Source of the DNA: an uncultured Ruminococcus sp.
GTDB taxonomy: Bacteria > Bacillota > Clostridia > Oscillospirales > Acutalibacteraceae
DNA: 50,421 bases
Assembly (NCBI GenBank): GCA_902800005.1
Contig: CADCCP010000041.1
Span: forward strand, 1 to 50,421
Direction of reading: 5' to 3'
Shown: piece by piece, positions 4,165 to 50,421 of the stretch
Layout of the letters: each line of letters opens with the position of its first letter
Numbering within the stretch: the first letter of the stretch is position 1
Notes under the pieces: generated by a model
Told to the model about the DNA's origin: nothing
The model's input: only the letters and a program-made list of their open reading frames with translations
Databases searched by the model: none
Program-made: the position numbers and the translations under genes

Positions 4165-4341
4165 TAGTAAACGTCAACGAATATTACTCATTCAGAGTGG
4201 AGAGTTAAGAGTTGAGAGTGGAGTTATTGCGATCCAAATTCTTTATAAAATCCGAATTTAAAGCAATTTCAGACACAAACACTCTCCACACTCCACTCCT
4301 TTAACAAATCTACAATAGGTAAATAAAAATGTCGTTTACTA
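4165..4341. mobile_element. 177-bp MITE of Tc1/mariner-IS630 type with TA target duplication
   Basis: The ends TAGTAAACGTC (4165-4175) and GACGTTTACTA-like (the right end reads GTCGTTTACTA at 4331-4341) are inverted copies with one mismatch. TA flanks both sides (4163-4164 and 4342-4343). The insertion splits a gene whose halves rejoin in frame once the element and one TA are removed, so the borders are well defined. A pair of facing GAGTGGA heptamer arrays fills the interior (4195-4300). No transposase is encoded. Confidence 0.8.
4195..4300. repeat. Facing GAGTGGA heptamer arrays (inside the MITE)
   Basis: The left array at 4195-4223 has units GAGTGGA, GAGTTAA, GAGTTGA, GAGTGGA. The right array at 4279-4299 is the inverted form (ACTCTCC, ACACTCC, ACTCC). 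The junction GAGTGGAGTTATTGCGATC (4216-4234) recurs identically at 50113-50131. Confidence 0.8.
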
Positions 4342-4688
4342 TAGATTTAAAATAAGTGTATGACAAGTTCTCCGTTACGCCCTTTAAAATATAATTCTCT
4401 AAATCCGGTTCGGCATTATGGGCGGAGTTCTCGACCATTTTTATCCTCTCGTCAAGAAATATAAGTTTCTCTGCACAATCAGCTGTCGGATCACTTAACG
4501 TGCCGCTGCCCAATATTGCAGATTTGTCTGTCGGTCTTTTGGTGATACTTGACAGATATGCACGTTTTTTCTTCCATGACGGATATTGCAGACAGAAGTG
4601 TTTCAGTTCATAATATCTGTGTCTGCATCATAATATTTAGCATTCGCACCTCACTTTGAGCAGAATATCATTAAACATTCCCCTTTAA

Positions 4689-4851
4689 CTTAAAATTTAC
4701 CGTTAATATCATACATTTTAAGTCGAGAGAAATCAACCCGTCATCAACCTTGTCACACTTTGTGCGTTTCGGCGAAGCACTAAGAATCGTTACCGACAAA
4801 CTCGACAGCAAGAATTTTTATGCTTTCAATCCCGAATTTGACAAAATTTAA
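4689..4851 (+). pseudogene. Possible 3' remnant of an unrecognised gene
   Basis: An open stretch of 53 codons without ATG, GTG or TTG near its beginning, ending REINPSSTLSHFVRFGEAL and FYAFNPEFDKI before TAA at 4849-4851. A strong terminator follows directly at 4867-4904, as expected after a real gene end. I do not recognise the family. It may be the tail of a gene whose front was lost when the neighbouring mobile DNA came in. Confidence 0.3.
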
Positions 4852-4866
4852 AAATGACTTTTTTTC

Positions 4867-4904
4867 AAGCACACCGTTTTTTCTGAAAAATGGTGTGCTT
4901 TTTT
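4867..4904 (+). terminator. Rho-independent terminator
   Basis: A 9-bp perfect stem AAGCACACC / GGTGTGCTT with an AT-rich loop and a T tract. It sits just after the gene remnant and before the promoter at 4921. Confidence 0.8.
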
Positions 4905-4920
4905 AAAAATCACATTTATA

Positions 4921-4949
4921 TTGACATTTCAACATAAACATGATATAAC
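4921..4949 (+). promoter_or_regulatory. Sigma-A promoter of the DUF6270 gene pair
   Basis: -35 TTGACA (4921-4926), 17-bp spacer, -10 TATAAC (4944-4949). It leads to the ATG at 5019 through GAGG at 5003-5006. Confidence 0.8.
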
Positions 4950-5018
4950 TTAAATAAAGTTGCCTGCTCGTGTTGTAACGGGTATGCAAATAGAAATATT
5001 GTGAGGTAACAAATTTAC

Positions 5019-6170
5019 ATGAAAAAAAATATAAATATTCTTGGTAGCTGTGTTTCCCGTGATACATTCGGTATGTTTGAGAATGACGGGGGCTTTAATA
5101 TTGAAAAATGCGTGACAAATTCAGGCATTTTTTCCCTGTGTTCTCCGAAACTCTCAGAAACTCCTGTCTGCATGGAAAGCGACTTCCCCAACAGTGATAA
5201 ATACTGTCAGCAATGTGCGGTACTTGACATCAACAAAACCGTGTTTGAATATATCAAAGAGTCCGATGCCGACTATACCATAATAGACATTGCCAACCTC
5301 ACTTCCAAACAGGTAATGCAGGTAAGAATGAAAAACGATCCTGACAAGGACAGCTTCACCTACATCACGAAAACACAGGCTCTCAATGAAAATCCCCGAT
5401 TCCTTGAAAACGCTCCCTTTGACGTGATAAAGACTTTCTATGCTTTTGCGGACGAATTTGCAATGATGGCTTTCGTCTATCAGTTCGCTGAACTCCTCCA
5501 AAACAGCTTTGACCAAAGTAAACTCATTATCATTGAAGCAAAGCCTATGGAGAGATATATCGACACTGACGGCACTGTTAAACTTTTTTCCGCTTACAAC
5601 AGCATAGCAAAACAAACCCGATATATCTCGGAGGCTTATGATGTGATAGAAAATGCTCTCCCGAAAGCCCATGTCATACAATTTCCGAATGTCGAAATAC
5701 TCTGCAACGCAAATCATAAATGGGGACTGCACCTGTTTCACTATATCAATGAATTTTACGGCTATGTCATTGACTGCATAAGGGCTATCGCCTGTTCTGC
5801 CGACAGACAGTCCGAAAAAATAATGCTTAAAAGCATTAAAAAACTCTATGAACAGTTAATTCGTGAACGCTATGCCGATACAGTCAGCGGTGAATATCCT
5901 CTGGAAAACAAGTCGTTCATTTCCTCCAATGCCATACATCTCGGTCAGCCTGTCACTGTATTTCTCAATGCAAAGGGCGGCACGGGCAAATATAAATATA
6001 AAGTGTTCATAAGAAAAAAATATGAAAACAACTGGCAGGTTCTCCCGTTTGACGGCAGCAGTTCCTTTGAGTACAAGCCACAACATTATGCTTTGTACGA
6101 ACTCTGCGTAAAGGCAAGCGATGAAAACCATGTCGTTAAAAAAGAATACTTTGAATTTATCGTCCACTAA
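5019..6170 (+). CDS. DUF6270 SGNH-like protein, paralogue 1
   Basis: 383 residues. The N-terminus MKKNINILGSCVSRDTFGMF carries the GSCxSRD block of DUF6270, which resembles the nucleophile loop of SGNH/GDSL hydrolases. A second conserved block near residues 230-245 (WGLHLFHYINEFYGY) offers the His. Residues about 305-383 form a beta-rich tail (KYKYKVFIRKK, FEYKPQHYALYELCVKASD) like a Y_Y_Y or Ig-like module. No signal peptide, so it is probably cytoplasmic. The family is often found with surface polysaccharide genes, but the substrate is unknown. Paired with a paralogue 140 bp downstream, probably one transcript. Confidence 0.75.
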   Translation: MKKNINILGSCVSRDTFGMFENDGGFNIEKCVTNSGIFSLCSPKLSETPVCMESDFPNSDKYCQQCAVLDINKTVFEYIKESDADYTIIDIANLTSKQVMQVRMKNDPDKDSFTYITKTQALNENPRFLENAPFDVIKTFYAFADEFAMMAFVYQFAELLQNSFDQSKLIIIEAKPMERYIDTDGTVKLFSAYNSIAKQTRYISEAYDVIENALPKAHVIQFPNVEILCNANHKWGLHLFHYINEFYGYVIDCIRAIACSADRQSEKIMLKSIKKLYEQLIRERYADTVSGEYPLENKSFISSNAIHLGQPVTVFLNAKGGTGKYKYKVFIRKKYENNWQVLPFDGSSSFEYKPQHYALYELCVKASDENHVVKKEYFEFIVH

Positions 6171-6171
6171 A

Positions 6172-6309
6172 CAATTTGCAATGTGTAATGTGCAATGTAC
6201 AATTATTGACATCTGCTTTTTTGCACATTGCAGTTTAATTATTACCATAAATTTATGAAAGGAAAAGCAATGTAAACAACTATCAATGCACATTGCACAT
6301 TGTAAATTG
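6172..6309. repeat. Facing CAATGTG heptamer arrays between the DUF6270 paralogues
   Basis: Left array 6172-6206 (CAATTTG, CAATGTG, TAATGTG, CAATGTA, CAATTAT), a short internal copy near 6223, and an inverted right array 6285-6309 (CAATGCACATTGCACATTG). The right array ends 3 bp before the likely ATG at 6313 and contains the alternative ATG at 6286. Confidence 0.8.
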
Positions 6310-6312
6310 AAA

Positions 6313-8814: not shown

Positions 8815-8818
8815 ATAT

Positions 8819-8834
8819 CCTCATTCCTCATTCG
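8819..8834. repeat. CTCATTC heptamer array upstream of mtaB
   Basis: A little over two copies of CCTCATT on the plus strand, AATGAGG on the mtaB strand. The GAGGA core lies 4-5 nt before the mtaB ATG and serves as its ribosome site. Confidence 0.65.
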
Positions 8835-11929: not shown

Positions 11930-13876
11930 ATGAAAAAGTCGATAAAAATTTTATCAGTGGCAGGTGCAATAGCGGTCTTGACGGCAAGTATGCCGATCTG
12001 TTCAAGTGCCGTTGAAGGTCAGAAAGTCAGAGTTATCGTTGAAAACGGAACCCTCTCAAAAGACAGCGGTGCAAACTGGGACGGAATTTTGTTTGACAGC
12101 ACGGTTGAAGTCGGTGAAGGCGACAGTGCTTTGAGTGCATTTTCAAAAGCCGTTGAAGAAAACGGCTTTACACAGCAGGGTGCCGAAACGGGATTTGTCA
12201 GCGGTATCAACGGACTTGGCGGAGAACAGGGCGGTGCATGGATGGCAACGCTCAATGACTGGTTCACGGACGAGGGGCTGACAGCTTATACAGTTGAAAA
12301 CGGCAAGCTCTCAGACGGTGATGAAGTTCATTTCATGTACACTATGAACTGGGGTGCAGACTTGGGCTATGACTGGATGTCAACCGATACAACTCTTGCA
12401 GATATACAGTTCAGTTCGGGCAAACTGATACCTGAATTTTCACCCGAAGTTACTGAATATACTCTTGAACTTTCGGAAGATAAAATAACTGTCATTCCGA
12501 CAGCTTCAAGTAAGTCGTTTCCCGTGAAGATGTATTATAATGAATACACGACAGATGAAATGGGTACGGACTTCAAGAAAAATACGGAAATAGCCGTTGC
12601 AGACGGAGATGTAATTATCATAGGCGTTGCAAACAGCGGTTGGATGAGTTATGTACCCGACGGCGTGACGGAAACCGTCTATAAGATCGGCATTAACTGC
12701 AAGTCAGAGGAAATTTCTAACGAGCCTTCACAAGAACCGAGTTCGGAGCCTGTTGAGGATAAAATAACGATAGAGGCATTGAGAGAAAAATATCCCGTAC
12801 AGCAGGCGATTTACGGAAATGAGTGGGGCATGATAACGCTTGCAAAATTCGATTTGTTGACGGACGAAATAAAAGACAGCTATACAAAAAGCGTGAAAGA
12901 GTATCTTGACAGTATCGGCACGGCAAAAATCAGCGGTACACGTTCAACATCTGTATCCGGAGTGGCAATAGCCGTTTCCGGCATGGAAAAAAATATCTAT
13001 GATTTCTACGGATATAATTTGTTAGAGCCTTTGTCAGATATGGATTATGTCACAAATCAAGGCATAAACGGTGCAATATATGCACTCATGGCATTTGATA
13101 CCAATGCAGAATACTACATACCGAAAGCAAAAGACGGCATTACTCAGACTACAAGAGAAAAACTTATCAGCGAGATTTTGAAAGCACAAGGTGAAGACGG
13201 CGGTTGGACGTTTGACGTTGGAAATAAGTCTGATGCAGACATGACGGGCATGGCATTACAGGCACTTGCATCTTATAAAGATAAAGATGAAGTAAAGCCG
13301 TGTATTGAGAAGGCACTTGCATTTTTGAGTGAAAGTCAGAAAGATAATGGCGGATATGTTTCATACGGAGCAGAGGACAGCGAAAGCTGTTCACAGGTCA
13401 TAGCAGGTTTGACAATGCTTGATATAGATGTGCTGACGGACAGCAGATTTATCAAAAACGGCAATACAGTTTATGATGCACTCATGAGATATTACAAAGA
13501 GGACGGCACATTTGCCCATGCCGTAAACGGTGACGGAAATGCTATTTCGACATCACAGGCATATTATGCGGTTGCAGTAATGTATGAGCATGAATATAAA
13601 AACGACATGGCAAATAAAGTTGTTTTTGAAGAACCCGAAGTAAGTACATCAAGTGAGCCATCAAAGGAAAGTTCTATTGAGCCTTCAAAGGAAAGTTCTG
13701 TTGAGCCTTCAAAGGAAAGTTCTGTTGAGCCGTCAAAGACAGTTTCACAGACTTCATCAAATGTTGATTCAACTGACAATATCCCGACAGGTGACAGCGA
13801 AAACATCATATTGATATTCGGTTTAATGCTTGTATCTGTAAGCGTGATATTTGCGGTTTCAAAAAAGAGAGTATAA
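11930..13876 (+). CDS. Cell-wall anchored transcobalamin/intrinsic-factor-like protein (DUF4430 plus alpha/alpha toroid)
   Basis: 648 residues, with CGGAGG 8 nt before the ATG. Signal peptide residues 1-26 (ending SSA). DUF4430 at about 32-150, the fold of the C-terminal domain of eukaryotic B12 carriers (GGAWMATLNDWF, DEVHFMYTMNWG). Cadherin-like beta sandwich at about 155-250 (FSPEVTEYTLEL). Alpha/alpha toroid of prenyltransferase-like repeats at about 280-560 (GEDGGWTFD, KDNGGYVSYG), the fold of the B12-carrier N-terminal domain. Then a Ser/Glu/Pro linker with four SKESS-type repeats and the tail IPTGD, hydrophobic span, KKRV: a sortase-type sorting signal. First gene of the locus. B12 as ligand is inferred from the two folds and from the ECF genes that follow. 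Confidence 0.82.
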   Translation: MKKSIKILSVAGAIAVLTASMPICSSAVEGQKVRVIVENGTLSKDSGANWDGILFDSTVEVGEGDSALSAFSKAVEENGFTQQGAETGFVSGINGLGGEQGGAWMATLNDWFTDEGLTAYTVENGKLSDGDEVHFMYTMNWGADLGYDWMSTDTTLADIQFSSGKLIPEFSPEVTEYTLELSEDKITVIPTASSKSFPVKMYYNEYTTDEMGTDFKKNTEIAVADGDVIIIGVANSGWMSYVPDGVTETVYKIGINCKSEEISNEPSQEPSSEPVEDKITIEALREKYPVQQAIYGNEWGMITLAKFDLLTDEIKDSYTKSVKEYLDSIGTAKISGTRSTSVSGVAIAVSGMEKNIYDFYGYNLLEPLSDMDYVTNQGINGAIYALMAFDTNAEYYIPKAKDGITQTTREKLISEILKAQGEDGGWTFDVGNKSDADMTGMALQALASYKDKDEVKPCIEKALAFLSESQKDNGGYVSYGAEDSESCSQVIAGLTMLDIDVLTDSRFIKNGNTVYDALMRYYKEDGTFAHAVNGDGNAISTSQAYYAVAVMYEHEYKNDMANKVVFEEPEVSTSSEPSKESSIEPSKESSVEPSKESSVEPSKTVSQTSSNVDSTDNIPTGDSENIILIFGLMLVSVSVIFAVSKKRV

Positions 13877-13927: not shown

Positions 13928-14701
13928 ATGTCATTGAAAAAGAAAATAATAATAGCAGTTGTAATAATTCTTGCATTGGGCGGAGCATTTTTCTTTTCGG
14001 AAAAGCCACCCGAAAAAGTGACAGAAATATCCGTTGAAGAAAGCATTGTCAGCGAAGTTTCCGAAATATCCGTTGAAGAAAGTATTGTCAGCGAAATTTC
14101 CGAAATATCCGTTGAAGAAAGTATTATCAACGAAGTTTCCGAAATATCCGTTGAAGAAAGTGTTGTCAACGAAGTTTCTGAAATATCCGTTGAAGAAAGC
14201 GTTGTCAGTGAAATTTCCGAAATATACGTTGAAGAAAGTATTATCAACGAAGTTTCCGAAATATCCGTTGAAGAAAGTGTTGTCAACGAAGTTTCTGAAA
14301 TATCCACAATTTCTATATCATGCAGTACTTTATTGAATAATCTTGACAGGGTAAAGAAAAATAAATTAGCTGTGATACCGTCAAATGCCGTGATATTGTC
14401 GGCGGTCAGAGAGGAATTTACAGAAGGTGAAAGTGTTTTTGACGTAACAAAGAGAGTTTGCATAGATAGAAAGATACCCTTTGAATTTACGCTTGCACCG
14501 ATATATAATACGGCTTATATCGAGGGTATCGGGAATATTTATGAATTTGACTGCGGAAGTACATCAGGTTGGCTTTACAAGGTGAACGGGGAGTTCAAAA
14601 GTTACGGCTGTTCGGATTGTAAATTGAGTGACGGTGACATTATCGAATGGGTATACACTTGCGACTTGGGAAAGGACGTTGGAAATGAGTATAAAGAGTG
14701 A
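13928..14701 (+). CDS. Membrane-tethered DUF4430 protein with a 13-residue repeat stalk
   Basis: 257 residues. A lysine-rich start and one membrane helix (IIIAVVIILALGGAFFF, residues 7-23) anchor it. Residues about 33-123 are seven copies of a 13-residue acidic repeat EISVEESxVxEVS. Residues about 130-255 are DUF4430 (ESVFDVTKRVCIDRKIPF, CGSTSGWLYKVNGEF, DGDIIEWVYTCDLG). It would hold a small ligand-binding domain off the membrane, plausibly passing ligand from the wall-anchored protein upstream to the ECF permease downstream. The ribosome site AGGGG is 3 nt before the ATG. The 3' end overlaps the next gene. Confidence 0.8.
   Translation: MSLKKKIIIAVVIILALGGAFFFSEKPPEKVTEISVEESIVSEVSEISVEESIVSEISEISVEESIINEVSEISVEESVVNEVSEISVEESVVSEISEIYVEESIINEVSEISVEESVVNEVSEISTISISCSTLLNNLDRVKKNKLAVIPSNAVILSAVREEFTEGESVFDVTKRVCIDRKIPFEFTLAPIYNTAYIEGIGNIYEFDCGSTSGWLYKVNGEFKSYGCSDCKLSDGDIIEWVYTCDLGKDVGNEYKE
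14024..14296 (+). repeat. Seven 39-bp in-frame tandem repeats
   Basis: Units begin GAAATATCCGTTGAAGAAAG at 14024, 14063, 14102, 14141, 14180, 14219 and 14258, with a partial eighth. They encode the acidic stalk of the DUF4430 protein. Units differ in a few codons (IVSEVS, IINEVS, VVNEVS), and an alternating order hints at duplication of multi-unit blocks. Confidence 0.92.
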
Positions 14702-25569: not shown

Positions 25570-25578
25570 AAACTTCAC

Positions 25579-25605
25579 TCTCCACTCTCCAAACTCCACT
25601 CTACA
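25579..25605. repeat. GAGTGGA heptamer array upstream of the BofA-like gene
   Basis: Plus-strand units ACTCTCC, ACTCTCC, AAACTCC, ACTCTAC; read on the gene's strand these are GAGTGGA-type. It ends 10 bp before the ATG and carries the apparent ribosome site. Confidence 0.75.
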
Positions 25606-25628
25606 ATTATATCCTGTCACAAACCAAA

Positions 25629-28130: not shown

Positions 28131-28155
28131 AAATTATGCAATTATGAATTGTGAA
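28131..28155. repeat. ATTATGA-type heptamer array abutting the argF stop codon
   Basis: Degenerate units (AATTATG, CAATTATGAATTGTGAATTATT) between the terminator and the argF TAA at 28156-28158. Same family as the pair at 36334-36450. Confidence 0.55.
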
Positions 28156-29067
28156 TTATTCATTACCAACGCATTTTACCATGACAGCTTTCTGTGCATG
28201 AAGTCTGTTTTCGGCTTCCTCGAATATCTCATCAGCGTGGGCTTCAAAGACTTCTTCGGTTATCTCCTCTCCCCTGTGTGCAGGCAGACAATGCTGTATC
28301 ATTGCATCGGGTTTTGCAAGTTTCATCAATTCTTCATTCACCTGATAACCGTCAAAGGCTTTTCTTCTCTTTTCAGCCTCACCTTCCTGTCCCATAGATG
28401 CCCATACGTCTGTAATAACAACGTCTGCATCAATGACAGCTTCCTTGGGAGTGCGGAACATCTGGAATTTATCTCCGTATTCTTTCGCAAATGCCAATAC
28501 ATCTTCATGCGGTTCATAGCCTTCCGGACAAGCTACTGCTATCGACATACCCGTTTTCAATGCACCGACTATCAATGAATTCATCATGTTATTTCCGTCA
28601 CCGATAAAGCACATTTTCAAGCCGTCCAATTTGCCCTTGAACTCTCTTATAGTCATCAAGTCGGCAAGTATCTGACAAGGGTGACAGAAATCCGTCAAGC
28701 CGTTTATTATCGGAATACTGCCGTATTTAGCCAGATCTTCAACTTCACTCTGCTCAAAAGTACGGATCATTATACAATCAAGATACCTTGAAAGAACTCT
28801 TGCTGTATCCTGTACAGGTTCGCCCCTGCCTATCTGCATATCCTTTGAAGAAAGGAATATCGGCTGTCCGCCAAGCTGATATGTGCCTACTTCAAAAGAT
28901 ACTCTCGTTCTTGTTGAAGCCTTTTCAAATATCAATCCTACGGATTTTCCTGCAAGAAGTTTGTGTTCAATTCCGTGTTTCTGCTCATATTTAAGTTGAT
29001 CGGCTAAATTCAGTATTTCAAAAATTTCTTCCGAACTTAAATCAAGCATTTTCAATAAATGTTTCAT
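28156..29067 (-). CDS. argF: Ornithine carbamoyltransferase
   Basis: 303 residues. Makes citrulline from ornithine and carbamoyl phosphate. Carbamoyl phosphate motif STRTRVSFEVG near residues 53-63, HPCQILADL near 127-135, and ornithine-binding HCLPAHRGEEI near 258-268. Normal length. Last gene of the arginine operon: 1 nt after argD, so certainly co-transcribed. The stop codon touches a heptamer repeat. Confidence 0.96.
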   Translation of the reverse strand: MKHLLKMLDLSSEEIFEILNLADQLKYEQKHGIEHKLLAGKSVGLIFEKASTRTRVSFEVGTYQLGGQPIFLSSKDMQIGRGEPVQDTARVLSRYLDCIMIRTFEQSEVEDLAKYGSIPIINGLTDFCHPCQILADLMTIREFKGKLDGLKMCFIGDGNNMMNSLIVGALKTGMSIAVACPEGYEPHEDVLAFAKEYGDKFQMFRTPKEAVIDADVVITDVWASMGQEGEAEKRRKAFDGYQVNEELMKLAKPDAMIQHCLPAHRGEEITEEVFEAHADEIFEEAENRLHAQKAVMVKCVGNE

Positions 29068-30995: not shown

Positions 30996-31859
30996 TCAAT
31001 AGAACATTGTGCCAACGCCTTCATCTGAGAACATCTCTATAAGTATTGAATGAGGTATTCTTCCGTCAATGATATGTGCCCTCTTTACACCACGCCTTAC
31101 GGCTTCAACACAACACTCTATTTTCGGTATCATACCGCCCGATATAATGCCCTCTTTTTTGAGTGACGGAACTTCGCTGACGTTTACAACAGGTATCAAT
31201 GTATTTTCATCATCTTTATCTTTGAGAAGTCCTTTTATATCCGTCATAAGAATAAGTTTTGCCGCTTTGAGTTCAGCCGCAATTCTTGCCGCCGCCAAGT
31301 CTGCATTGATATTATAGACTGCACCGTTATAACCGCCTGCAACCGTTGATATTATCGGTACATAGCCGTTTTTAGTCGCATCTTCGATTATCTGTGTATT
31401 GACTTCGGTTATCTCTCCGACAAATCCCAAGTCATAAGCCGTTGACTTCTTTTCAGCCATTATCATTCTGCCGTCAAGTCCGCACAAACCGATAGCTTTA
31501 CCGCTGTGCTGTTCCAATCTCTGCACAAGACTTTTATTTACTTTACCTGCAAGAACCATCTGTACTATATCAATGGTTTCACTGTCGGTAACTCTCAAAC
31601 CATTGATGAATTTACTTTCCTTGCCGATTTTTTTAAGCATATCGCTTATTTCGGGACCGCCCCCATGCACCAGCACAACATTTATTCCTACCAACTGCAA
31701 AAGCACTATATCACTCATTACGGCACTTTTGAGGTCTTCATTTATCATAGCATTTCCGCCGTATTTTACTACGATAGTCTTTCCCGACCACTTCTGTATA
31801 TACGGCAACGCTTTAATAAGGACATTCGCCCTATCCTGATTTGAAATATTACTCTGCAT
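30996..31859 (-). CDS. argB: Acetylglutamate kinase
   Basis: 287 residues from ATG 31859 (MQSNISNQDRANVLIKAL); TTG 31865 is an alternative. The ribosome site GGAG lies 11 nt before the ATG, and the start overlaps the hepT 3' end. Amino acid kinase fold: KYGGNAM, LVHGGGPEIS, NINADLAAARIAAELKAAKLILMTDI, GMIPKIECCVEAVRRGVKRAHIIDGR. Phosphorylates N-acetylglutamate. In such cyclic pathways this step is often feedback-inhibited by arginine; not assessed here. Confidence 0.95.
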   Translation of the reverse strand: MQSNISNQDRANVLIKALPYIQKWSGKTIVVKYGGNAMINEDLKSAVMSDIVLLQLVGINVVLVHGGGPEISDMLKKIGKESKFINGLRVTDSETIDIVQMVLAGKVNKSLVQRLEQHSGKAIGLCGLDGRMIMAEKKSTAYDLGFVGEITEVNTQIIEDATKNGYVPIISTVAGGYNGAVYNINADLAAARIAAELKAAKLILMTDIKGLLKDKDDENTLIPVVNVSEVPSLKKEGIISGGMIPKIECCVEAVRRGVKRAHIIDGRIPHSILIEMFSDEGVGTMFY

Positions 31860-32208
31860 TTCCAAACCTACTCCTTAAAACATTTTCCAATTCATTTTTC
31901 AATGGCTTTAAGTCATCATATATCGTGTCCCAAACGATACGCATATCCACTCCCGAATATCCGTGTACTATCCTGTTACGCATACCATAAAGCTGTTTCC
32001 ATGGTATAGAAGTTATCGTCATTTTCAATTCGTCCGATAAAGATGATTTTGCAAGTTCGCCTATCTGCATCAAATTGAAAACACACGCTTCCACTCGCAT
32101 ATTATCTGACTGAAATTCTTCCAAAGTCGAACAATCCCTACAATAAATTTCAATAGAATTTATGTGTTCACAAATTTTCAGCAAAACTCTTTTATCTCTA
32201 AGTTCCAT
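31849..32208 (-). CDS. hepT: HepT-like ribonuclease toxin (DUF86)
   Basis: 119 residues. The HEPN motif R-x4-H is seen as RNRIVHGY near residues 81-88, giving the R-x4-H-x-Y arrangement whose Tyr is AMPylated by MntA antitoxins. It is an RNase of the HepT/MntA toxin-antitoxin type. Starts 11 nt inside mntA and ends 11 nt inside argB, so it is translationally embedded in the arginine operon. Active motif intact. Confidence 0.9.
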   Translation of the reverse strand: MELRDKRVLLKICEHINSIEIYCRDCSTLEEFQSDNMRVEACVFNLMQIGELAKSSLSDELKMTITSIPWKQLYGMRNRIVHGYSGVDMRIVWDTIYDDLKPLKNELENVLRSRFGNAE

Positions 32209-32503
32209 AAATAAGCACTCCGCTTTTGTTGATTTCCCTTTCCACTGCCGAATCGGGAATTATTTGTGTAACGTCAAGCATATCAACCTCTTTATTAAGT
32301 GCAGTAACAACATCTTCAAGCAATCCGAAAAATGCCAGACCTTTCAAACCGCTGTCTACCAATATATCAATGTCACTGTTCTGTACTGCACTATCCTTTG
32401 CATACGAACCGAACAAAACGGCTTTCTTAACGTGATATTCATCAAAAACAGGCTTTAACAATGACTTTATCTGATTTATTGTATATACAATATCACTTTG
32501 CAT
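32198..32503 (-). CDS. mntA: MntA-like nucleotidyltransferase antitoxin
   Basis: 101 residues from ATG 32503, 9 nt after GGAG; ATG 32512 is possible. Minimal nucleotidyltransferase motif GSYAKDSAVQNSDIDILVD (GSxAx-DxD) near residues 33-52. It neutralises HepT by adding AMP to its active-site Tyr. Forms a pair with hepT. Upstream lies a CTCATTC heptamer repeat. Confidence 0.9.
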   Translation of the reverse strand: MQSDIVYTINQIKSLLKPVFDEYHVKKAVLFGSYAKDSAVQNSDIDILVDSGLKGLAFFGLLEDVVTALNKEVDMLDVTQIIPDSAVEREINKSGVLIYGT

Positions 32504-32520
32504 TGTTTTCATCTCCGTTC

Positions 32521-32565
32521 GGAATGAGTGATATATTCCTCACTCCTCATTCCTCATTCATCATT
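32521..32565. repeat. CTCATTC heptamer arrays between argJ and mntA
   Basis: GGAATGAGTG at the left faces TTCCTCACTCCTCATTCCTCATTCATCAT at the right, so inverted units with a 5-bp gap. Located within the arginine operon just behind the argJ stop. Confidence 0.75.
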
Positions 32566-34942: not shown

Positions 34943-36316
34943 TTAATTTTCAATTAAAGCCCTGACTCTTTTGACCTGTGCTTTGACATTTTCACTTGCG
35001 GGACCGCCTATTACTTTTCTGCCGTTCACGCAGTTTTCAAGCGATATTGCTTCATAAACTCCCTCGTCAAATACTTCACATATTTTCTTGTATTCCTCTA
35101 TCGGCAATTCTTCGAGAGTAGTCTTTTTCTCTATGCAGATCGCTACAAGAGTTCCCGTTGCTTTATAAGCATCACGGAAAGGCAAGCCTTTTTTAACAAG
35201 ATAGTCTGCACAATCTGTTGCATTGATAAAGCCGTTTGCAGCAGCTTTTCTCATGTTATCCGTGAGAACTTTCATGGTATCTATCATGGGAGTGAACGCC
35301 GTCAAACACATTTTGACAGTATCGACTGCATCAAATATAGCCTCTTTATCTTCCTGCATATCCTTGTTGTATGCAAGGGCTATTCCTTTCATCACCGTTA
35401 AAAGTGTCATTAAATCTCCGAAAACTCTGCCAGACTTTCCTCTGACAAGTTCCGCTATATCGGGATTTTTCTTTTGAGGCATGATACTCGAACCTGTTGA
35501 AAATGCGTCATCAAGCTCGACAAACTTAAATTCCCATGAACACCACATGATTATTTCTTCCGAAAATCTTGAAAGATGTACCATGATGATAGAAAGAACG
35601 CTTGCCAATTCCATACAGAAATCCCTGTCGGAAACACCGTCAAGACTGTTCTGTGAAACTCTGTCAAAGTTGAGTAATTTAGCTGTTATGTTTCTGTCAA
35701 TGGGATATGTCGTTGTAGCCAATGCACCGCTTCCCAAAGGCATTTCGTCCATGTGTCTGTAAGCACATTCAAGCCTGTCAACGTCACGCAAAAGCATTTC
35801 CGCATAAGCCATAAGATGATGACCGAATGTAATGGGCTGTGCTCTCTGCAAATGGGTATAACCCGGCATGACTGCACCTGCATATTCTTCCGCTTTATTG
35901 CAGATAACTCCGATAAGTTCTTTGACTTGCGACTTGATATTCTGAACTTCTTTTTTCAGATAAAGACGTATATCAACGGCTACTTGGTCATTACGGCTTC
36001 TTGCCGTATGCAAACGCTTTCCGGTCTGTCCTAAACGCTGTGTAAGTTCGCCCTCTATGAATGTATGTATATCTTCGGCATTGGGGTCTATCTGCAATTT
36101 GCCTTCATCAATGTCTGCAAGAATACCTTTCAAGCCCTCTATGATAGCCTGTGATTCACTTTTCTCTATTATACCGCATTCACCTATCATTTCGGCATGA
36201 GCCATACTGCCCTCTATATCTTCACGATACATTCTGCTATCGAATGATATTGACGAATTGAAGTCATTTGTTTTTTTATCTATCTCCTTTGAGAAACGTC
36301 CTGCCCAAAGTTTCAC
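34943..36316 (-). CDS. argH: Argininosuccinate lyase
   Basis: 457 residues, normal length. MKLWAGRFSKEIDKKTNDFNSS start, RSRNDQVAVDIRLYLK, the TGYTHLQRAQP-like GYTHLQRAQPITFGHH, and the fumarase-superfamily signature GSSIMPQKKNPDIAE near residues 280-294. Cleaves argininosuccinate to arginine and fumarate. Intact although the preceding argG is broken. Confidence 0.96.
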   Translation of the reverse strand: MKLWAGRFSKEIDKKTNDFNSSISFDSRMYREDIEGSMAHAEMIGECGIIEKSESQAIIEGLKGILADIDEGKLQIDPNAEDIHTFIEGELTQRLGQTGKRLHTARSRNDQVAVDIRLYLKKEVQNIKSQVKELIGVICNKAEEYAGAVMPGYTHLQRAQPITFGHHLMAYAEMLLRDVDRLECAYRHMDEMPLGSGALATTTYPIDRNITAKLLNFDRVSQNSLDGVSDRDFCMELASVLSIIMVHLSRFSEEIIMWCSWEFKFVELDDAFSTGSSIMPQKKNPDIAELVRGKSGRVFGDLMTLLTVMKGIALAYNKDMQEDKEAIFDAVDTVKMCLTAFTPMIDTMKVLTDNMRKAAANGFINATDCADYLVKKGLPFRDAYKATGTLVAICIEKKTTLEELPIEEYKKICEVFDEGVYEAISLENCVNGRKVIGGPASENVKAQVKRVRALIEN

Positions 36317-36333: not shown

Positions 36334-36450
36334 AATTCATAATTCATAATGCACAATTCATAATTGTTTTCAAATCCCAAATTTATCTTTAAAACAAGAA
36401 AACTGCCGAACACAATCCATTATGCATTATGCATTATGAATTATGCATTA
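36334..36450. repeat. Facing ATTATGA/C heptamer arrays between argG and argH
   Basis: Left array 36334-36366 (AATTCAT, AATTCAT, AATGCAC, AATTCAT, AATTG) and right array 36418-36450 (ATTATGC, ATTATGC, ATTATGA, ATTATGC, ATTA) are mutually inverted, about 51 bp apart. The right array contains the last codons and the stop of argG. Confidence 0.85.
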
Positions 36451-39409: not shown

Positions 39410-40339
39410 ATGCCTATCAAAATTCAGGACGGCTTGCCTGCACTCAAAACACTTGAATCAGAAAATATCTTTGTCATGACAAATCAGAGGGCTACCACTC
39501 AGGATATAAGACCTCTCAAAATAGTTATAGTCAACCTCATGCCGACCAAGATAGAAACCGAAACTCAGCTTTTACGCCTGCTCGGAAACTCCCCTTTGCA
39601 AGTTGATATTGAACTGCTCCAGATGGCTACCCATGTTTCAAAAAACGTGTCCTCAGAACATCTCACAGCCTTTTACAAGACCTTTGACGAGATAAAAGAC
39701 CAGTATTATGACGGTATGATAATAACAGGTGCTCCCGTTGAACTTCTCGAATATGAAGATGTCGATTATTGGGACGAGCTTTGTCAGGTCATGGACTGGT
39801 CAAAAAAAAATGTTTACAGTACCATGCATATATGCTGGGGGGCACAAGCCGCTATGTATCATCATTACGGCATACAAAAATATAAACTCCCCGAAAAACT
39901 CTCAGGTGTTTACACGCACCGTATCAGTAATATCTATCACCCGTTAATGCGTGGCTTTGACGATAAAATTTTAATGCCACATTCACGCTACACGGGTATA
40001 CACCGCTCTGACATTCAAAAATTCGATGAACTGGAAATTCTCGCTTACTCCAATATTGCAGGCGTTTCCATCGTTGCCAACAAGAACGGCAGACAGTTTT
40101 TTGTATTCGGTCATGCAGAGTATGACAGAAATACCCTCTATAATGAATATTACCGTGATGTCAATAAGGGACTTCACCCTCAAATTCCATACAATTACTT
40201 TACAGGAAATGATCCCCGTTCAATGCCTGCACTTACATGGAGAAGCTATGCCACTATCCTTTATTCAAACTGGCTCAACTACTACGTCTACCAGCAAACT
40301 CCATATGATCTTGCAGACCTTGAAAATATGCAGAAATAA
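39410..40339 (+). CDS. metA: Homoserine O-acetyltransferase (MetA family)
   Basis: 309 residues from ATG 39410 (MPIKIQDGLPAL), the family's usual start; ATG 39401 is in frame and closer to the ribosome site. Catalytic Cys in MHICWGAQAA, His in HSRYTGIHR and the Glu in GHAEYDR. The substrate-selecting position reads GAPVE; family work links Glu here to acetyl-CoA and Gly (as GAPLG) to succinyl-CoA, so acetylation is predicted. First step of methionine synthesis from homoserine. Single-gene unit. Confidence 0.94.
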   Translation: MPIKIQDGLPALKTLESENIFVMTNQRATTQDIRPLKIVIVNLMPTKIETETQLLRLLGNSPLQVDIELLQMATHVSKNVSSEHLTAFYKTFDEIKDQYYDGMIITGAPVELLEYEDVDYWDELCQVMDWSKKNVYSTMHICWGAQAAMYHHYGIQKYKLPEKLSGVYTHRISNIYHPLMRGFDDKILMPHSRYTGIHRSDIQKFDELEILAYSNIAGVSIVANKNGRQFFVFGHAEYDRNTLYNEYYRDVNKGLHPQIPYNYFTGNDPRSMPALTWRSYATILYSNWLNYYVYQQTPYDLADLENMQK

Positions 40340-40353
40340 TTCGGGCAAAATAA

Positions 40354-40521
40354 CAATGTACAATGTGCAATGTACAATGTGCAATGTACAATGTGCAATG
40401 TACAATGTACAATGTGCAATGTGCAATGTGCAATGTGCAATGTGCAATGTGCAATGTGCAATGTGCAATGTACAATGTACAATGTGCAATGTACAATGTA
40501 CAATGTGCAATGTGCAATATA
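40354..40521. repeat. Long CAATGT(A/G) heptamer array, 23 perfect units
   Basis: Units start every 7 bp from 40354 to 40508, all CAATGTA or CAATGTG, then a degenerate CAATATA. Only the last base of the unit varies. The order from left is A G A G A G A A G G G G G G G G A A G A A G G. The array lies between the metA stop and a bidirectional terminator. The unit has no stop codon in any of the six frames, which creates long spurious reading frames. Confidence 0.97.
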
Positions 40522-40556
40522 AAAAAATTCGGCAGATGATCTCTGCCGATTTTTTT
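40521..40556. terminator. Bidirectional terminator between metA and the deacetylase gene
   Basis: Stem AAAATTCGGCAGA / TCTGCCGATTTTTT with T tracts on both strands between convergent genes. Confidence 0.88.
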
Positions 40557-47039: not shown

Positions 47040-47116
47040 CAAAAAGCATCTCCTTTCCGCATCATTTTACAATATTTGTACTCATTTTGTCAAGACAAAT
47101 TGTTACAATATTGTAG

Positions 47117-47145: not shown

Positions 47146-47183
47146 TAGCTTACAGAATATGTCATTTTTTGAGAGGTGAACTT

Positions 47184-47684
47184 ATGGACAAAAAAAGAAA
47201 CATCTTTCTTACAGTTATCCTGCTTTCAATTATCGCTGCTGTTACGGCTGTCATCGTGCTCGCCGTTCTTGCCGAACAGAATACTCAGAAAAATGCCAGA
47301 TCATATCTTGCCACTAATACCATCGTATCTCAGGTCATCAAAAAAATGAATTATCAAAACCTTTCCAAGATCTCTGATGAAAATATATCCAAATATTATA
47401 ATATCCCCAACGGTATCATTACCGACTCCTCTGTTTACATATCCAACCGCACTGATTCCGGTATGGAGCTTGCCTGTTTCCGCCTGAGCAGCGAGGACTG
47501 TGCTCCCATACTCTCCGATTCAATATCCGAACACATCTCTTCAAAAAACAACGAAAATAAAGAAGGCAGCGGTCAGCTTGCAAAATTCAAGACAGATACC
47601 GTTTACCCTTATGTATTCGTTGCCGTCGCTTCCGACAGCGAGGCTGCCGCAAACGCTTTCCGAGAGACCGTTAATGAAAAATAA
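47184..47684 (+). CDS. DUF4358 family membrane-anchored protein
   Basis: 166 residues from ATG 47184, after GAGGTG. N-terminal membrane helix (about 6-30). The outer domain has the DUF4358 pattern: YYNIPNGIITDSSVYISNRTDSGMELACFRL and the late PYVFVAVASDSEAAANAF. Function unknown; single-gene unit with promoter and terminator. Confidence 0.82.
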   Translation: MDKKRNIFLTVILLSIIAAVTAVIVLAVLAEQNTQKNARSYLATNTIVSQVIKKMNYQNLSKISDENISKYYNIPNGIITDSSVYISNRTDSGMELACFRLSSEDCAPILSDSISEHISSKNNENKEGSGQLAKFKTDTVYPYVFVAVASDSEAAANAFRETVNEK

Positions 47685-47686
47685 AA

Positions 47687-47726
47687 AATGACTTACAGTC
47701 AATATGCTGTAAGTCATTCTTTTATT
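47687..47726. terminator. Bidirectional terminator between DUF4358 and gpmI
   Basis: A 12-bp perfect stem AATGACTTACAG / CTGTAAGTCATT flanked by T and A tracts. Confidence 0.85.
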
Positions 47727-47746
47727 TGCACTCAGAGCGAAAAATA

Positions 47747-47777
47747 TTCCTCATTCCTCACTCATAATTCCTCATTT
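47747..47777. repeat. CTCATTC heptamer array overlapping the gpmI stop codon
   Basis: TTCCTCA, TTCCTCA, CTCATAA, TTCCTCA, TTTCAT. The gpmI stop (TGA at 47774-47772) lies in this array. Confidence 0.75.
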
Positions 47778-49283
47778 CATAAGGCTTGTACCGTCCATTT
47801 CTTCGGGCTTTGACAAGCCTAAAAGCTGTAACATTGTCGGAGCTATATCTGCAAGTCTGCCGCCGTCTCTGAGAATACACGGATGATTCACTACACAGAA
47901 CGGTACAAGATTCGTTGTATGAGCCGTGAACGGTGAACCGTCTTCTTCTATCATCTTATCGGCATTTCCGTGATCGGCTGTAATAAGTGCCACACCGTCC
48001 ATCTTCACAACTGCATTAACTACCTGTCCTACACAATCATCTACAGCTTCAACTGCCTTTACAGCAGCATCAAACACACCTGTATGTCCGACCATATCGC
48101 AGTTTGCAAAGTTCAGTATAACTACATCATACTTGCCGCTCTCTATCCTCTCAACAGCATTCTTTGCAACTTCATATGCACTCATTTCAGGCTGCAGATC
48201 GTATGTTGCAACTTTCGGTGACGGTATCAAACACCTGTCCTCACCTTCCGAGACCTTCTCTACACCGCCGTTAAAGAAAAATGTTACATGAGCATATTTC
48301 TCCGTTTCGGCAATTCTGAGCTGTGTCATGCCCTTTGAAGAAATGTAATCACCAAACATATTTACAAGTGACTGCGGCTTGAATGCAACTTCAACATTCG
48401 GCATAGTTGCATCATACTGCGTCATGCAAACGTAATTCAACGGGAAAAATCCCTTTCTTCTCTCAAACTTATCGAAACTTTCATCTACAAGAGTTCTTGT
48501 GATCTCCCTTGCCCTGTCAGGTCTGAAATTGCAGAAAATAACACTGTCACCCGCATTGATAGTCGCATTTTCCTCGCATACAAAAGGAATGACAAATTCA
48601 TCTGTAACACCGTTTGCATATGAATTGGCGATACCCTCAACGGGATCATTTTCTTTCACGCCCTCACCGTATACAAGAGCGGCATAGGCTTTTTCTACTC
48701 TGTCCCAGTTGTTATCCCTGTCCATAGCATAATAACGTCCTGCAACGGTCGCAATTTTGCCAAGACCTATTTCTTCGAGCTTTTCTTTACACTCGGCTAC
48801 ATAGTCCTTTGCACTTGATGGGGGAACATCTCTGCCGTCAAGGAAAGCATGGAGCCATACCTTCTCCACACCCATTTTTTTAGCCATCTCAACGATACCG
48901 TAAATGTGTGTTATATGGCTGTGAACGCCGCCCGGCGACATCAAGCCCATCAAATGCAGAGCCTTTCCCTCACCTTTGGCATTTTCCATAGCCTTTACAA
49001 GCACTTCATTCTTCAATACACTGCCGTCTTGGATAGCCTTTGAAATTCTCGTCAATTCCTGATAAACAACTCTGCCTGCACCCATGTTTGTATGACCGAC
49101 TTCACTGTTACCCATTTGTCCATCGGGCAAGCCTACATCCATACCGGAAGCTGCTATGAGTGTTACGGGATTTGTCGAAAATATCTTTTCCATATTTGGC
49201 TTGTTAGCCGTTCTTATGGCATTACCGTAATTCGTGCCTATTCCAAAGCCGTCAAGTATCATCAATACTACAGGTTTTTTCAT
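47772..49283 (-). CDS. gpmI: 2,3-bisphosphoglycerate-independent phosphoglycerate mutase
   Basis: 503 residues, normal for the family. Metal and phosphoserine site: LMILDGFGIG at the N-terminus, QMGNSEVGHTNMGAGR with the catalytic Ser near 61, DGRDVPPSSA, FRPDRAREI, and the late metal ligands in ADHGNADKM and FTAHTTNLVPF. Glycolysis and gluconeogenesis. 18 nt behind tpiA. The last two codons and stop touch a heptamer array. Confidence 0.97.
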   Translation of the reverse strand: MKKPVVLMILDGFGIGTNYGNAIRTANKPNMEKIFSTNPVTLIAASGMDVGLPDGQMGNSEVGHTNMGAGRVVYQELTRISKAIQDGSVLKNEVLVKAMENAKGEGKALHLMGLMSPGGVHSHITHIYGIVEMAKKMGVEKVWLHAFLDGRDVPPSSAKDYVAECKEKLEEIGLGKIATVAGRYYAMDRDNNWDRVEKAYAALVYGEGVKENDPVEGIANSYANGVTDEFVIPFVCEENATINAGDSVIFCNFRPDRAREITRTLVDESFDKFERRKGFFPLNYVCMTQYDATMPNVEVAFKPQSLVNMFGDYISSKGMTQLRIAETEKYAHVTFFFNGGVEKVSEGEDRCLIPSPKVATYDLQPEMSAYEVAKNAVERIESGKYDVVILNFANCDMVGHTGVFDAAVKAVEAVDDCVGQVVNAVVKMDGVALITADHGNADKMIEEDGSPFTAHTTNLVPFCVVNHPCILRDGGRLADIAPTMLQLLGLSKPEEMDGTSLMK

Positions 49284-49301
49284 ATTTTAGCCACCTTTTT
49301 A

Positions 49302-50069
49302 TTATTTGCTTGCTGCTGCGATGAGTACGCCGAACTGATCTGCTTTCAGAGATGCACCGCCTATCAAACCGCCGTCAACGTCATACTGTGCAAGGAGTTC
49401 TTCACAATTTGCAGGATTCATTGAACCGCCGTACTGAATCGTTACAGCATTTGCAACATCCTGTGAATAGAGTTTTGCAAGAGTGTCACGAATGAGTTTG
49501 CAAACTTCTTCAGCCTGTTCGGAAGTTGCAACTTTACCTGTACCGATAGCCCATACGGGTTCATAAGCGATAACCGTCTTTTTAACGTCCTCTGCACTTA
49601 CGCCGAACAAATCAAGTTTTATCTGTCTTGCAACGACTTCTTCTGTAATGCCGCACTCTCTTTCCCAAAGCAGTTCACCAACGCATACAATAGGTTTCAA
49701 GCCTGCTGCAAGAGCTGCCTTTGTTCTCTTGTTTACGGTTTCATCTGTTTCTCCGAAATACTGTCTTCTCTCGCTGTGACCGATGATAACATATTCTACA
49801 CCGAGTTCTGTCAGCATATCAGCGGAAATTTCACCTGTGAAAGCACCGCTCTTTTCAAAATGTACATTTTCTGCACCGACTTTTATATTTGTACCCTCTG
49901 TCATGGCAATAGCTGTTTCAAGGTTCGTGAAAGGTACGCATATTACAACTTCACAATCTGCATTTTCAGCCAACGGCTTAATGCCCTCTATCAAAGCCTT
50001 TGCTTCGGGACGAGTTTTATTCATCTTCCAGTTACCTGCAATTATAGTTTTTCTCAATGACTTGTCCAT
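49302..50069 (-). CDS. tpiA: Triosephosphate isomerase
   Basis: 255 residues, GGGAG 9 nt before the ATG. Substrate Lys and Asn in AGNWKMNKT, the catalytic His in IIGHSERRQYFGE, the Glu in AYEPVWAIGTG, and phosphate loop GGSMNPANCEELL. Interconverts glyceraldehyde 3-phosphate and dihydroxyacetone phosphate. Forms a two-gene glycolytic unit with gpmI; gap and pgk may lie beyond the window. Confidence 0.97.
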   Translation of the reverse strand: MDKSLRKTIIAGNWKMNKTRPEAKALIEGIKPLAENADCEVVICVPFTNLETAIAMTEGTNIKVGAENVHFEKSGAFTGEISADMLTELGVEYVIIGHSERRQYFGETDETVNKRTKAALAAGLKPIVCVGELLWERECGITEEVVARQIKLDLFGVSAEDVKKTVIAYEPVWAIGTGKVATSEQAEEVCKLIRDTLAKLYSQDVANAVTIQYGGSMNPANCEELLAQYDVDGGLIGGASLKADQFGVLIAAASK

Positions 50070-50091
50070 TTTAAAATCTCCCTTTCTATCA

Positions 50092-50234
50092 GAGTGGAGT
50101 GTTGAGAGTGGAGAGTGGAGTTATTGCGATCTCCACTTCATTCTCAAAATCCACTGTTTTTTAATTTAAAATTTTCGTGTTTCGGAAAAGTTCAAGTTTA
50201 CTCAACTGCTTCACTCTCAACTCTCCACACTCTC
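50092..50234. repeat. Facing GAGTGGA heptamer arrays upstream of tpiA
   Basis: Left 50092-50120 (GAGTGGA, GTGTTGA, GAGTGGA, GAGTGGA, G) and right 50212-50234 (CACTCTCAACTCTCCACACTC), inverted, about 90 bp apart. The left junction GAGTGGAGTTATTGCGATC equals that at 4216-4234. No MITE ends like those at 4165/4341 are seen here. Confidence 0.82.
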
Positions 50235-50283
50235 TAAAAGACGGGACAAGGCATTTTCCGCCCTGCCCCGACAATTCAATTAG

Positions 50284-50421
50284 CAATGTGCAATGTACAG
50301 TTTACAATGTGTAATTATCATTACCACTGTACATAAGCAACACGCTAACTTTTCATTCAACCAACTATTTTTATTAACAATGTATCCGCAAACATAATTG
50401 TACATTGCACATTGCACATTG
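50284..50421. repeat. Facing CAATGTG heptamer arrays at the window end
   Basis: Left 50284-50317 (CAATGTG, CAATGTA, CAGTTTA, CAATGTG, TAATTAT) and right from 50396 (TTGTACATTGCACATTGCACATTG), inverted, running off the window. No gene lies between 50070 and 50421. Confidence 0.82.

Follow-up and report, generated by a model that had tools for sequence, protein, structure and literature searches.

Heptameric repeat arrays of a Ruminococcus genome as probable inverted arms of small insertion elements associated with PF05635 genes

Heptameric short tandem repeats (STRR) with the units GGGGA(C/T)T and GGGAATC are described in cyanobacteria and Xanthomonas, where they are intergenic, present in many copies and built on several units; the cited part of that source ties no gene or element to them, and a polymerase footprint is offered there as a hypothesis for a preference for 7-bp slippage (PMC4692102). 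The intervening sequences of 23S rRNA in Coxiella and Leptospira, one of them a 428-nt selfish element, have inverted, stem-forming ends and carry an S23p/IVP gene of the family PF05635; in Coxiella, tandem heptamers (GACAGAT) precede this gene in numbers that vary between strains (PMC4990558). Beyond that remark on Coxiella, no paper linking heptamer arrays to PF05635 was found in the open-access literature. The present analysis joins these two orphan facts, an over-representation of heptamers that lacks an accepted cause and a cross-phylum protein family that lacks a known function.

The window analysed here is a 50,421-bp stretch of DNA from an uncultured Ruminococcus sp. (genome G000, 89% complete), which was surveyed together with twenty 20-kb stretches of the same genome, 450 kb in total. 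This survey recovered 45 arrays of period 7 vs 0-2 at each of periods 5, 6, 8-11, and 13, and none of period 7 in a second-order Markov control; at a looser threshold the counts were 58 vs 0-7, so that the dominance of period 7 in the original prediction is borne out. As in STRR, the arrays consist of tandem 7-bp units, lie between genes, and occur in many copies. All eleven arrays predicted in the window are present, ten of them no more than a few bases from the predicted start; what had been placed at 32521 proved to be one inverted unit at 32522, facing an array at 32535. The window contains the following features:

4195-4223, plus strand: GAGTGGA left arm of a gene-less element, four heptamers, then TTATTGCGATC, as at 50121
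4280-4298, minus strand: GAGTGGA right arm, inverted; core 4224-4279
6172-6199, plus strand: CAATGTR left arm, 1 bp beyond a stop codon (frame end at 6170)
6289-6309, minus strand: CAATGTR right arm, inverted and just ahead of the next gene's predicted start; core 6200-6288 (89 bp)
8818-8833, minus strand: GAATGAG (CTCATTC) solo array
25576-25606, minus strand: GAGTGGA solo arm, TAGAGTGGAGTTTGGAGAGTGGAGAG
28131-28159, plus strand: HATTATG solo array; it runs into the 3' end of the frame 28156-29067 on the minus strand
32522-32528, plus strand: one GAATGAG unit, inverted relative to the array at 32535, which it faces
32535-32565, minus strand: GAATGAG (CTCATTC) array
36334-36365, minus strand: HATTATG left arm, directly upstream of the apparent Shine-Dalgarno region of the minus-strand gene 34943-36316
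36418-36450, plus strand: HATTATG right arm, inverted; core 36366-36417
40354-40518, plus strand: CAATGTR solo array, 23.6 units, 13 bp past a stop codon
47746-47776, minus strand: GAATGAG (CTCATTC) solo array
50092-50120, plus strand: GAGTGGA left arm, GAGTGGA GTGTTGA GAGTGGA GAGTGGA G
50121-50208, plus strand: core of the GAGTGGA element, common by eye to the elements of relatives, CTCAAAATCCACTGTTTTTTA ... TTTCGTGTTTCGG
50209-50232, minus strand: GAGTGGA right arm, inverted
50284-50297, plus strand: CAATGTR left arm, with degenerate units on to about 50315
50401-50421, minus strand: CAATGTR right arm, inverted, cut by the contig end

The window therefore holds only gene-less derivatives, with paired arms and a short core, and solo arms. 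Searching the cores for a gene remnant (tblastn, E<=5) gave, among the matches listed, only array-driven or chance-level hits. Clear inverted pairs occur at five of the eleven sites (4195, 6172, 36334, 50092, and 50284), to which the single unit at 32522 may be added, and the description of most arrays as paired needs correction to that extent. The cores had been taken as non-repeated, which is wrong for the GAGTGGA family: by eye, its members have a common core, and 34 inward-pair rows (orthologous loci included) show conserved inverted ends and core. This MITE-like combination of conserved ends and core in many copies was found for the GAGTGGA family only. As a whole, the predicted observation is partly confirmed.

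Of the 54 arrays in the 450 kb, 20 face inward towards a same-family array no more than 250 bp away, a limit that misses arm pairs around genes. The outer array end is the one closer to a gene in 37 of the 48 usable arrays among these 54; for GAGTGGA alone, orientation is not significant (7/12). The outer end is also the closer one for 47 of 61 usable arrays in a cross-phylum set of 87, the rest of which lie inside a called frame or have no neighbouring gene. The signal is weak in the subset not titled as Clostridia (outer end closer in 19/26, p 0.029; stop codon within 15 bp, 11 vs 3, p 0.057). At least 111 stretches, drawn from many taxa, contain an identical 21-base CAATGTR array, where about one would be expected by our own estimate under equal base frequencies; 80 of these stretches became loci.

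Two PF05635 genes were found in the Ruminococcus genome; both lie between inward heptamer arrays (CAATGTR at locus L019, HATTATG at locus L024), and both sit between other genes, not inside a 23S rRNA helix. All six proteins compared with the Pfam profile PF05635 (23S_rRNA_IVP) exceeded the cut-off of 33.8, with scores of 55-113 bits, and a profile search matched the solved four-helix bundles 2rld (E 7.6e-50) and 2gsc (XCC0516; E 0.0057). Parents that carry the gene exist within the clade for all four window units: CAATGTR in G000, G021, and G027; HATTATG in G000; GAATGAG in G009 and G010; and GAGTGGA in G010, G016, and G021.

From 60 PF05635 loci, 53 matched an open frame and gave 50 distinct genes; the seven without a frame are uncounted. 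Within the genus, a period-7 array lies within 300 bp of 19 of 21 distinct PF05635 genes and on both sides of 8, counts that are not independent because some of these genes are orthologues at one site. Control genes have an array on either side in 87/393 cases and on both sides in 5/393 in G000, and in 59/554 and 7/554, respectively, in stretches from the genus. Among diverse genomes, reached via CAATGTR arrays, 15 of 29 PF05635 genes have an array on either side vs 47 of 265 controls (Fisher 1.1e-4), and 8 of 29 on both sides vs 3 of 265 (Fisher 4.6e-7); the controls come from 20 of these genomes, mostly from PF05635-bearing contigs but away from that gene. The plasmid set, mostly cyanobacterial, was not reached via arrays: 19 of 22 PF05635 genes have an array within 350 bp on either side and 16 on both, the other 11 of 33 matches being near-copies, partial or low-ranked. 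Neither of two phage records with PF05635 had a period-7 array within this distance; in the same 24 plasmid and phage records, periods 5, 6, 8, 9, and 10 gave 1, 0, 0, 0, and 0. At the threshold used, no array accompanied 14 of the 29 diverse-genome genes or 3 of the 22 plasmid genes. Where both sides bear an array (n = 32), the two share a unit with at most one mismatch in 26 cases, vs 6.5% of cross-pairs, and are nearer to inverted in 25, to direct in 6, and tied in 1. The gene-plus-array layout and its tie to PF05635 extend across several phyla: cores that contain the gene occur among Clostridia, Cyanobacteria, Bacteroidota, Spirochaetota, and Chloroflexota. Within the genus, for which 22 genomes were surveyed for arrays, the occurrence of the gene is not matched to array abundance: PF05635 occurs in six of eight sampled genomes with arrays, was not found in the array-bearing G014 and G031 (76% and 83% complete), and occurs also in 7 of 15 in which the 12-40 kb sampled showed no arrays.

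Elements are present in some genomes and absent from others at orthologous sites. The L024 unit, arms and gene included (481 bp between flanks), is absent in all seven relatives compared (eight searched); the site measures 38-54 bp in six and holds 307 bp of other DNA in one, and none has arrays. At the window pair 36334, none of nine relatives' loci scanned has an array, and five have only 30 bp between the flanks. Array-free sites in relatives, which the original prediction had called for, thus exist at both places. At the window site 32535, 3 of 11 relatives' loci (L041, L046, L047) have a period-7 array and eight have none; at 40354, the orthologous stretch of G021 contains a small reading frame and no array. 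An element at L009:11988 is absent in G024, G027, and G030, and in the first two of these a single base pair separates the stop codon from an apparent ribosome-binding site. The gap between smpB and tmRNA measures 63, 46, and 29 bp in G021, G024, and G027, which lack an array there, while in G010 the arms at this site enclose a different reading frame with no Pfam match. Inspection by eye of filled and empty sites gave no consistent target-site duplication, the flanks of relatives being only about 70-90% identical, and native bases seem to be missing at some sites (smpB-tmRNA; window 40354). Recently gained solo arrays, such as L024:9743, would have had to lose one arm afterwards or to arise by another process.

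The four units had been called unrelated. Written inward, however, CAATGTR, GAATGAG, GAGTGGA, and TAATKCA all conform to xARTKxx in one register, and hybrid arrays connect them (CAATTAG, CAATTTA, CAATGTA, and CAATGTG in series at L008:12222; AAATTAG to GAATGAG at L010:14749). A cross-family pair occurs in which CAATGTR at L023:13843 faces GAGTGGA at L023:13991, and unit type differs between species at orthologous sites. Because of the common register and interconversion, the units are not unrelated; together with cross-family pairing and a PF05635-carrying version of each, this supports the predicted single system behind them. The unit turns over at one site: at smpB-tmRNA, the G000 and G016 genes share 90% identity, yet the arms differ, being short and of CAATTAG type in G016 and G030 and long CAATGTR arrays in G000. 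In G010, one element is present in tandem (L045), and its copies differ by two units. Of 44 non-coding unit types, counted with four forms of CAATGTR and HATTATG type excluded, 39 contain an A-N-T trinucleotide, vs 28.7 (sd 2.9) by permutation; this is an enrichment and not a universal rule, because five types and the PF05635-flanking units AAAGCTC, AACAGGC, and AACCTTG lack it.

These data suggest that the arrays are probably terminal arms, in inverted orientation, of small insertion elements that in full carry one PF05635 gene. A complete element would consist of an inward heptamer array, one PF05635 four-helix-bundle gene of about 120 codons, and an inverted heptamer array. The two arms fold on each other in silico as a long RNA stem. 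The solved PF05635 protein of Xanthomonas is a ring of five bundles (PMC4990558), and a ring of this kind would probably recognise the structure that the arms form when they fold back on each other, whether in single-stranded DNA or in a transcript. It may then promote copying or insertion of the DNA between the arms into intergenic gaps, acting in trans on gene-less copies. We know of no catalytic site in PF05635, and the protein could be a mere passenger. Surviving insertions would be those at the least harmful sites, between stop codon and ribosome-binding site, and arm ends would abut genes for that reason. Arms would lengthen or shorten by slippage and one variant unit would take over an array, which would yield seemingly different units from one stock.

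It is unlikely that the arrays are ordinary slippage repeats, in which 7-bp units are favoured, selection keeps them intergenic, and PF05635 is irrelevant. Slippage does fit the expansion and homogenisation of arrays (short arms in G016 and G030, long and uniform ones in G000), the two-unit difference at L045, and the heptamer excess reported in many bacteria (PMC4692102). However, it gives no account of same-unit inverted pairing around one gene family or of arms and gene gained as a unit at L024, and it leaves the common GAGTGGA cores and the widespread 21-base array unexplained; given the cores, the unit gain, and the pairing, independent slippage is insufficient as the whole cause. The 7-bp slippage unit named in the original prediction is a probable cause of array growth and unit turnover, but it leaves the inward pairs, the insertions, and the tie to PF05635 without an explanation. 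A general fold-back element moved by some host or IS transposase, with the four-helix-bundle gene as one of several cargoes, also seems rather unlikely: the other reading frame within the same arms in G010 agrees with it, as do most copies in the 450 kb, which have no PF05635 gene, but one gene family recurs in the core in Clostridia and the four other lineages listed with it above.

Spread through an RNA template is a variant of the movement step compatible with the preferred insertion-element reading, in which a transcript excised at the stem would be reverse transcribed with Avd-like help and inserted; we consider it quite improbable. PF05635 resembles Avd of diversity-generating retroelements (PMC10053308), the arms give a long RNA stem, and RNase III excises the Coxiella 23S element (PMC4990558). 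Avd was not among the PDB sequence matches of PF05635 proteins at E<=1. Reverse transcriptase (PF00078; one match in G000) went undetected in 16 of the 33 genomes searched, which bear arrays or a PF05635 gene or are close relatives; one of the 16 has 16 PF05635 matches, though several are incomplete, which leaves room for missed genes. The idea that a reverse transcriptase is generally required is thereby weakened. The reverse-transcribing agent of the original prediction is not supported, nor does any result here support its terminal-transferase-like one, leaving that interpretation as a whole partly supported. Array loci led to 28 genomes, among them G089, which gives the same matches as G006 of the genus and looks identical to it. 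REP/RAYT-like elements moved by a Y1 (HUH) transposase would likewise be short, intergenic, and inverted, with many gene-less copies, and Y1 genes are present in G016, which has a few arrays. This reading is nevertheless largely refuted and very improbable: PF01797 had no matches in G000, G010, or G021, the three array-richest genomes (89%, 91%, and 82% complete), and was found in genomes without arrays in their sampled stretches, such as G002, G003, and G020.

Extending the insertion-element reading, we tentatively propose that most bacterial heptameric arrays, cyanobacterial STRR included, may be ends or relics of one new class of mobile element, whose sole gene would encode the PF05635 ring protein and which would move without a transposase or a reverse transcriptase of its own, the protein acting on the arm fold-back; 23S rRNA intervening sequences would be members that landed in rRNA. 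If so, heptamer repeats would be tracks of mobile elements instead of a slippage curiosity, PF05635 would gain a testable role in arm binding and the promotion of insertion, and the 23S intervening sequences would gain a source. That repeats and gene also occur together in other phyla, cyanobacteria among them, may account for a class of bacterial repeats that has been puzzling. It also advises caution in annotation: where a PF05635 gene separates cas1 from cas2 or hsdS from hsdR, it is probably inserted and no component of the system around it.

Several known systems share parts of this layout. Drosophila fold-back (FB) transposons have inverted ends of short tandem repeats and a variable core, but they are eukaryotic and much longer, and we know of no protein common to them and the present elements. 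REP/REPIN elements with RAYT transposases are small intergenic inverted pairs with many gene-less copies; to our knowledge tandem heptamers are not a feature of them, and a Y1 transposase was not found in the three array-richest genomes here. The TAACTGA direct repeats of Beggiatoaceae, Cyanobacteria, and Bacteroidetes are likewise intergenic heptamers near gene ends, patchy across phyla and mostly in one orientation before start codons, but they have only one unit and almost no inverted pairs, and are read as possible sites of a translational regulator (PMC4679880). Avd of the diversity-generating retroelements is a homologous four-helix bundle (PMC10053308), though the present element encodes no reverse transcriptase. 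The 23S intervening sequences lie inside 23S rRNA and are cut out, whereas the present elements lie between protein genes or beside tmRNA, are mostly gene-less, and have heptamer arrays at both ends. The likeness to cyanobacterial heptamers in the original prediction is borne out by the same gene-plus-array layout on cyanobacterial plasmids; on that of Planktothrix, the array unit beside a PF05635 gene is AATCCCC, which is complementary to GGGGATT.

All eleven arrays of 7-bp period claimed for the window by the original prediction are present, as established with Tandem Repeats Finder and direct reading, and the constancy of the period holds well beyond them. A lag-match scan for tandem periods over 450 kb of this genome (G000; the window plus twenty 20-kb stretches) recovered 45 period-7 arrays, as compared with 0–2 at periods 5, 6, 8–11, and 13, and the same scan of a Markov-2 control returned no period-7 arrays; at a looser threshold, the counts were 58 and 0–7, respectively, leaving other periods far rarer. 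The heptamer excess is clade-limited: 40 stretches from 22 other genomes of the genus held 44 period-7 arrays, confined to G009, G010, G014, G016, G021, G030, and G031, and an order-level survey of 20 genomes yielded two. Several contig ends in G000 fall in or at CAATGTR arrays (window position 50421 and the starts of contigs C4, C14, and C47), so these arrays disrupt assembly, and longer examples may be absent from it. Other tandem repeats, of 12-, 24-, and 39-bp period, at window positions 3456–3550, 13654–13751, and 14024–14305 lie within long reading frames and are unrelated to the heptamers.

The description of the four units as unrelated does not hold. With paired arrays oriented to face each other, those of the window are built from CAATGTR, GAATGAG (the CTCATTC type), GAGTGGA, and TAATKCA (the complement of HATTATG), and all four share one register, xARTKxx; units of different types are mixed inside single arrays, and arrays of different families form a pair at one locus (L023:13843 with L023:13991). 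A single site following a stop codon carries CAATGTR in G000, CAATTAG in G010 and G021, GAATTAG in G031, and no array in G024. At locus L045 (G010:C238), a HATTATG element and its flank are duplicated in tandem, and in one arm the two copies have heptamer counts that differ by two; this is apparently a recent slippage event.

Array-free orthologous sites, as sought by the original prediction, exist among relatives. None of the nine relatives' loci scanned has the HATTATG pair of window 36334–36450 at the orthologous site; in five of them (G009, G010, G016, G021, and G030) the flanks are 30 bp apart. At L024:16637, a HATTATG pair occurs in G000 and G010, a GAGTGGA element in G009, G016, and G021, and neither in G030; G021 and G031 lack the solo CAATGTR array of L024:9743, and at that position G010 carries a short HATTATG array. 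GAGTGGA elements of G000 and its relatives have ends and core in common (34 rows compared by eye, orthologous loci included), which makes this family MITE-like. Filled and empty sites compared by eye revealed no consistent target duplication.

Other differences between relatives were observed beside the arrays. A small reading frame (~55 codons) in the G021 stretch orthologous to window 40339–40556 is missing in G000, where a long CAATGTR array occupies its place. On the minus strand at window 31849–32512, genes for a HepT-like ribonuclease and a nucleotidyltransferase, together a HEPN-MNT type pair (PF01934, PF18765/PF01909), adjoin a CTCATTC array; judged by length and by eye, 10 of the 11 loci compared from relatives lack the pair here, with a partial pair in G024. 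A second dispersed repeat, with inverted ends, lies beside heptamer arrays in relatives:

TGTCATT...GAATGACA repeat: window 32521 site, in L041 (G016); window 47747 site, in L032 and L051.

At locus L019, between smpB and the tmRNA gene (both identified by eye), two long inward CAATGTR arrays enclose a single gene whose product belongs to PF05635 (23S_rRNA_IVP, the S23p four-helix-bundle protein). The G000 gene, with long arms of CAATGTR only, is 90% identical to its G016 orthologue; in G016 and G030 the gene is flanked by short CAATTAG-type arms, and the G030 copy has an internal stop. The same site in G010 holds a different reading frame next to a CAATTAG array, and that in G009 an 82-bp stretch of degenerate inverted heptamers below threshold; the smpB-tmRNA gap without an array measures 63 bp in G021, 46 bp in G024, and 29 bp in G027. 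These variants demonstrate that the element was gained or lost, that its cargo changed, and that one unit took over from another. Outside the right array lies a 24-bp inverted copy of the putative tmRNA 5′ end (L019 11500–11523 and 12121–12144), an arrangement that resembles copying of the flank in the course of insertion or repair.

A profile run over all frames fetched by then identified six PF05635 genes, five beside heptamer arrays (three of these five loci had been fetched for their array) and a sixth (L204) with no array alongside. Both PF05635 genes found in G000 (89% complete) lie between arrays; the second (L024:1614–1967) is enclosed by HATTATG arms, and gene and arms are missing in all seven relatives compared. 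For every one of the four window units, the clade contains a parent that carries PF05635.

Scanning GTDB genomes for three CAATGTR units returned at least 111 stretches, against approximately one expected by our own estimate; titles among the matches listed include Clostridia, Bacteroidales, Phycisphaeraceae, Gammaproteobacteria, Anaerolineae, Ignavibacteria, Akkermansia, and others. A PF05635 match above the cut-off occurs in 23 of 28 genomes reached via the listed matches and in none of 14 control genomes, a weak contrast because the controls are mostly unrelated organisms. The strong test of the tie between arrays and PF05635 is that of gene flanks. Within the genus, a period-7 array lies within 300 bp of 19 of 21 distinct PF05635 genes, on both sides in eight, as compared with 87 (both sides, 5) of 393 control genes in G000 and 59 (both sides, 7) of 554 from stretches of the genus. 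Across diverse genomes, such an array lies within the same distance of 15 of 29 PF05635 genes, on both sides in eight, versus 47 and 3, respectively, of 265 control genes from 20 of these genomes. In a separate PF05635 set (22 plasmids and two phage records), arrays were present within 350 bp in 19 of 24 and on both sides in 16, all plasmid-borne; other periods reached at most one of 24. Gene pairs bracketing the plasmid copies include hsdS/hsdR, cas2/cas1 (twice), csx2/cas1, and similar neighbors. Among 32 both-sided cases, 25 are nearer inverted, six nearer direct, and one tied, and the two arrays have a common unit in 26, versus 6.5% of cross-pairs.

In the 450 kb of G000, 20 of 54 arrays have a same-family inward partner within 250 bp. 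In 37 of 48 usable arrays it is the outer end, not the inner, that lies closer to a gene, and a stop codon falls within 15 bp of 27 outer ends versus only four inner ends; for HATTATG, direction was fixed from its own pairs ahead of this count, and GAGTGGA taken alone (7 of 12) is not significant. In two of the relatives without the L009:11988 element, the stop codon and a putative ribosome-binding site are 1 bp apart. Insertion that leaves genes intact thus accounts for much of the positional bias.

The window arrays look like relics, lacking the gene, of a widespread class of elements whose full-length form would consist of an inward array, a PF05635 gene, and an inverted array. The observation behind the original prediction was mostly right, and its interpretation is supported in part. 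Alongside the layout, PF05635 association, presence and absence among relatives, and unit turnover observed here, the arms pair with each other in silico, with the outer ~80 bases of each end paired at L019. The PF05635 protein may recognize this fold-back, gene-less copies would be mobilized in trans, and slippage could cause the takeover of an array by one unit. No Y1 transposase (PF01797) turned up in the genomes richest in arrays, and the reverse transcriptase RVT_1 (PF00078) was not found in 16 of 33 genomes.

No published link between heptamer arrays and the PF05635 family was found in the open-access literature. PF05635 has been described as similar to Avd, a protein of diversity-generating retroelements (PMC10053308). 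The closest known counterpart is the intervening sequence of 23S rRNA that carries an S23p gene; in Coxiella, tandem GACAGAT heptamers ahead of the gene are described as varying among strains, and the same account mentions an old proposal that the intervening-sequence gene had a role in mobility (PMC4990558). The element class may be genuinely new, or these intervening sequences in a broader form.
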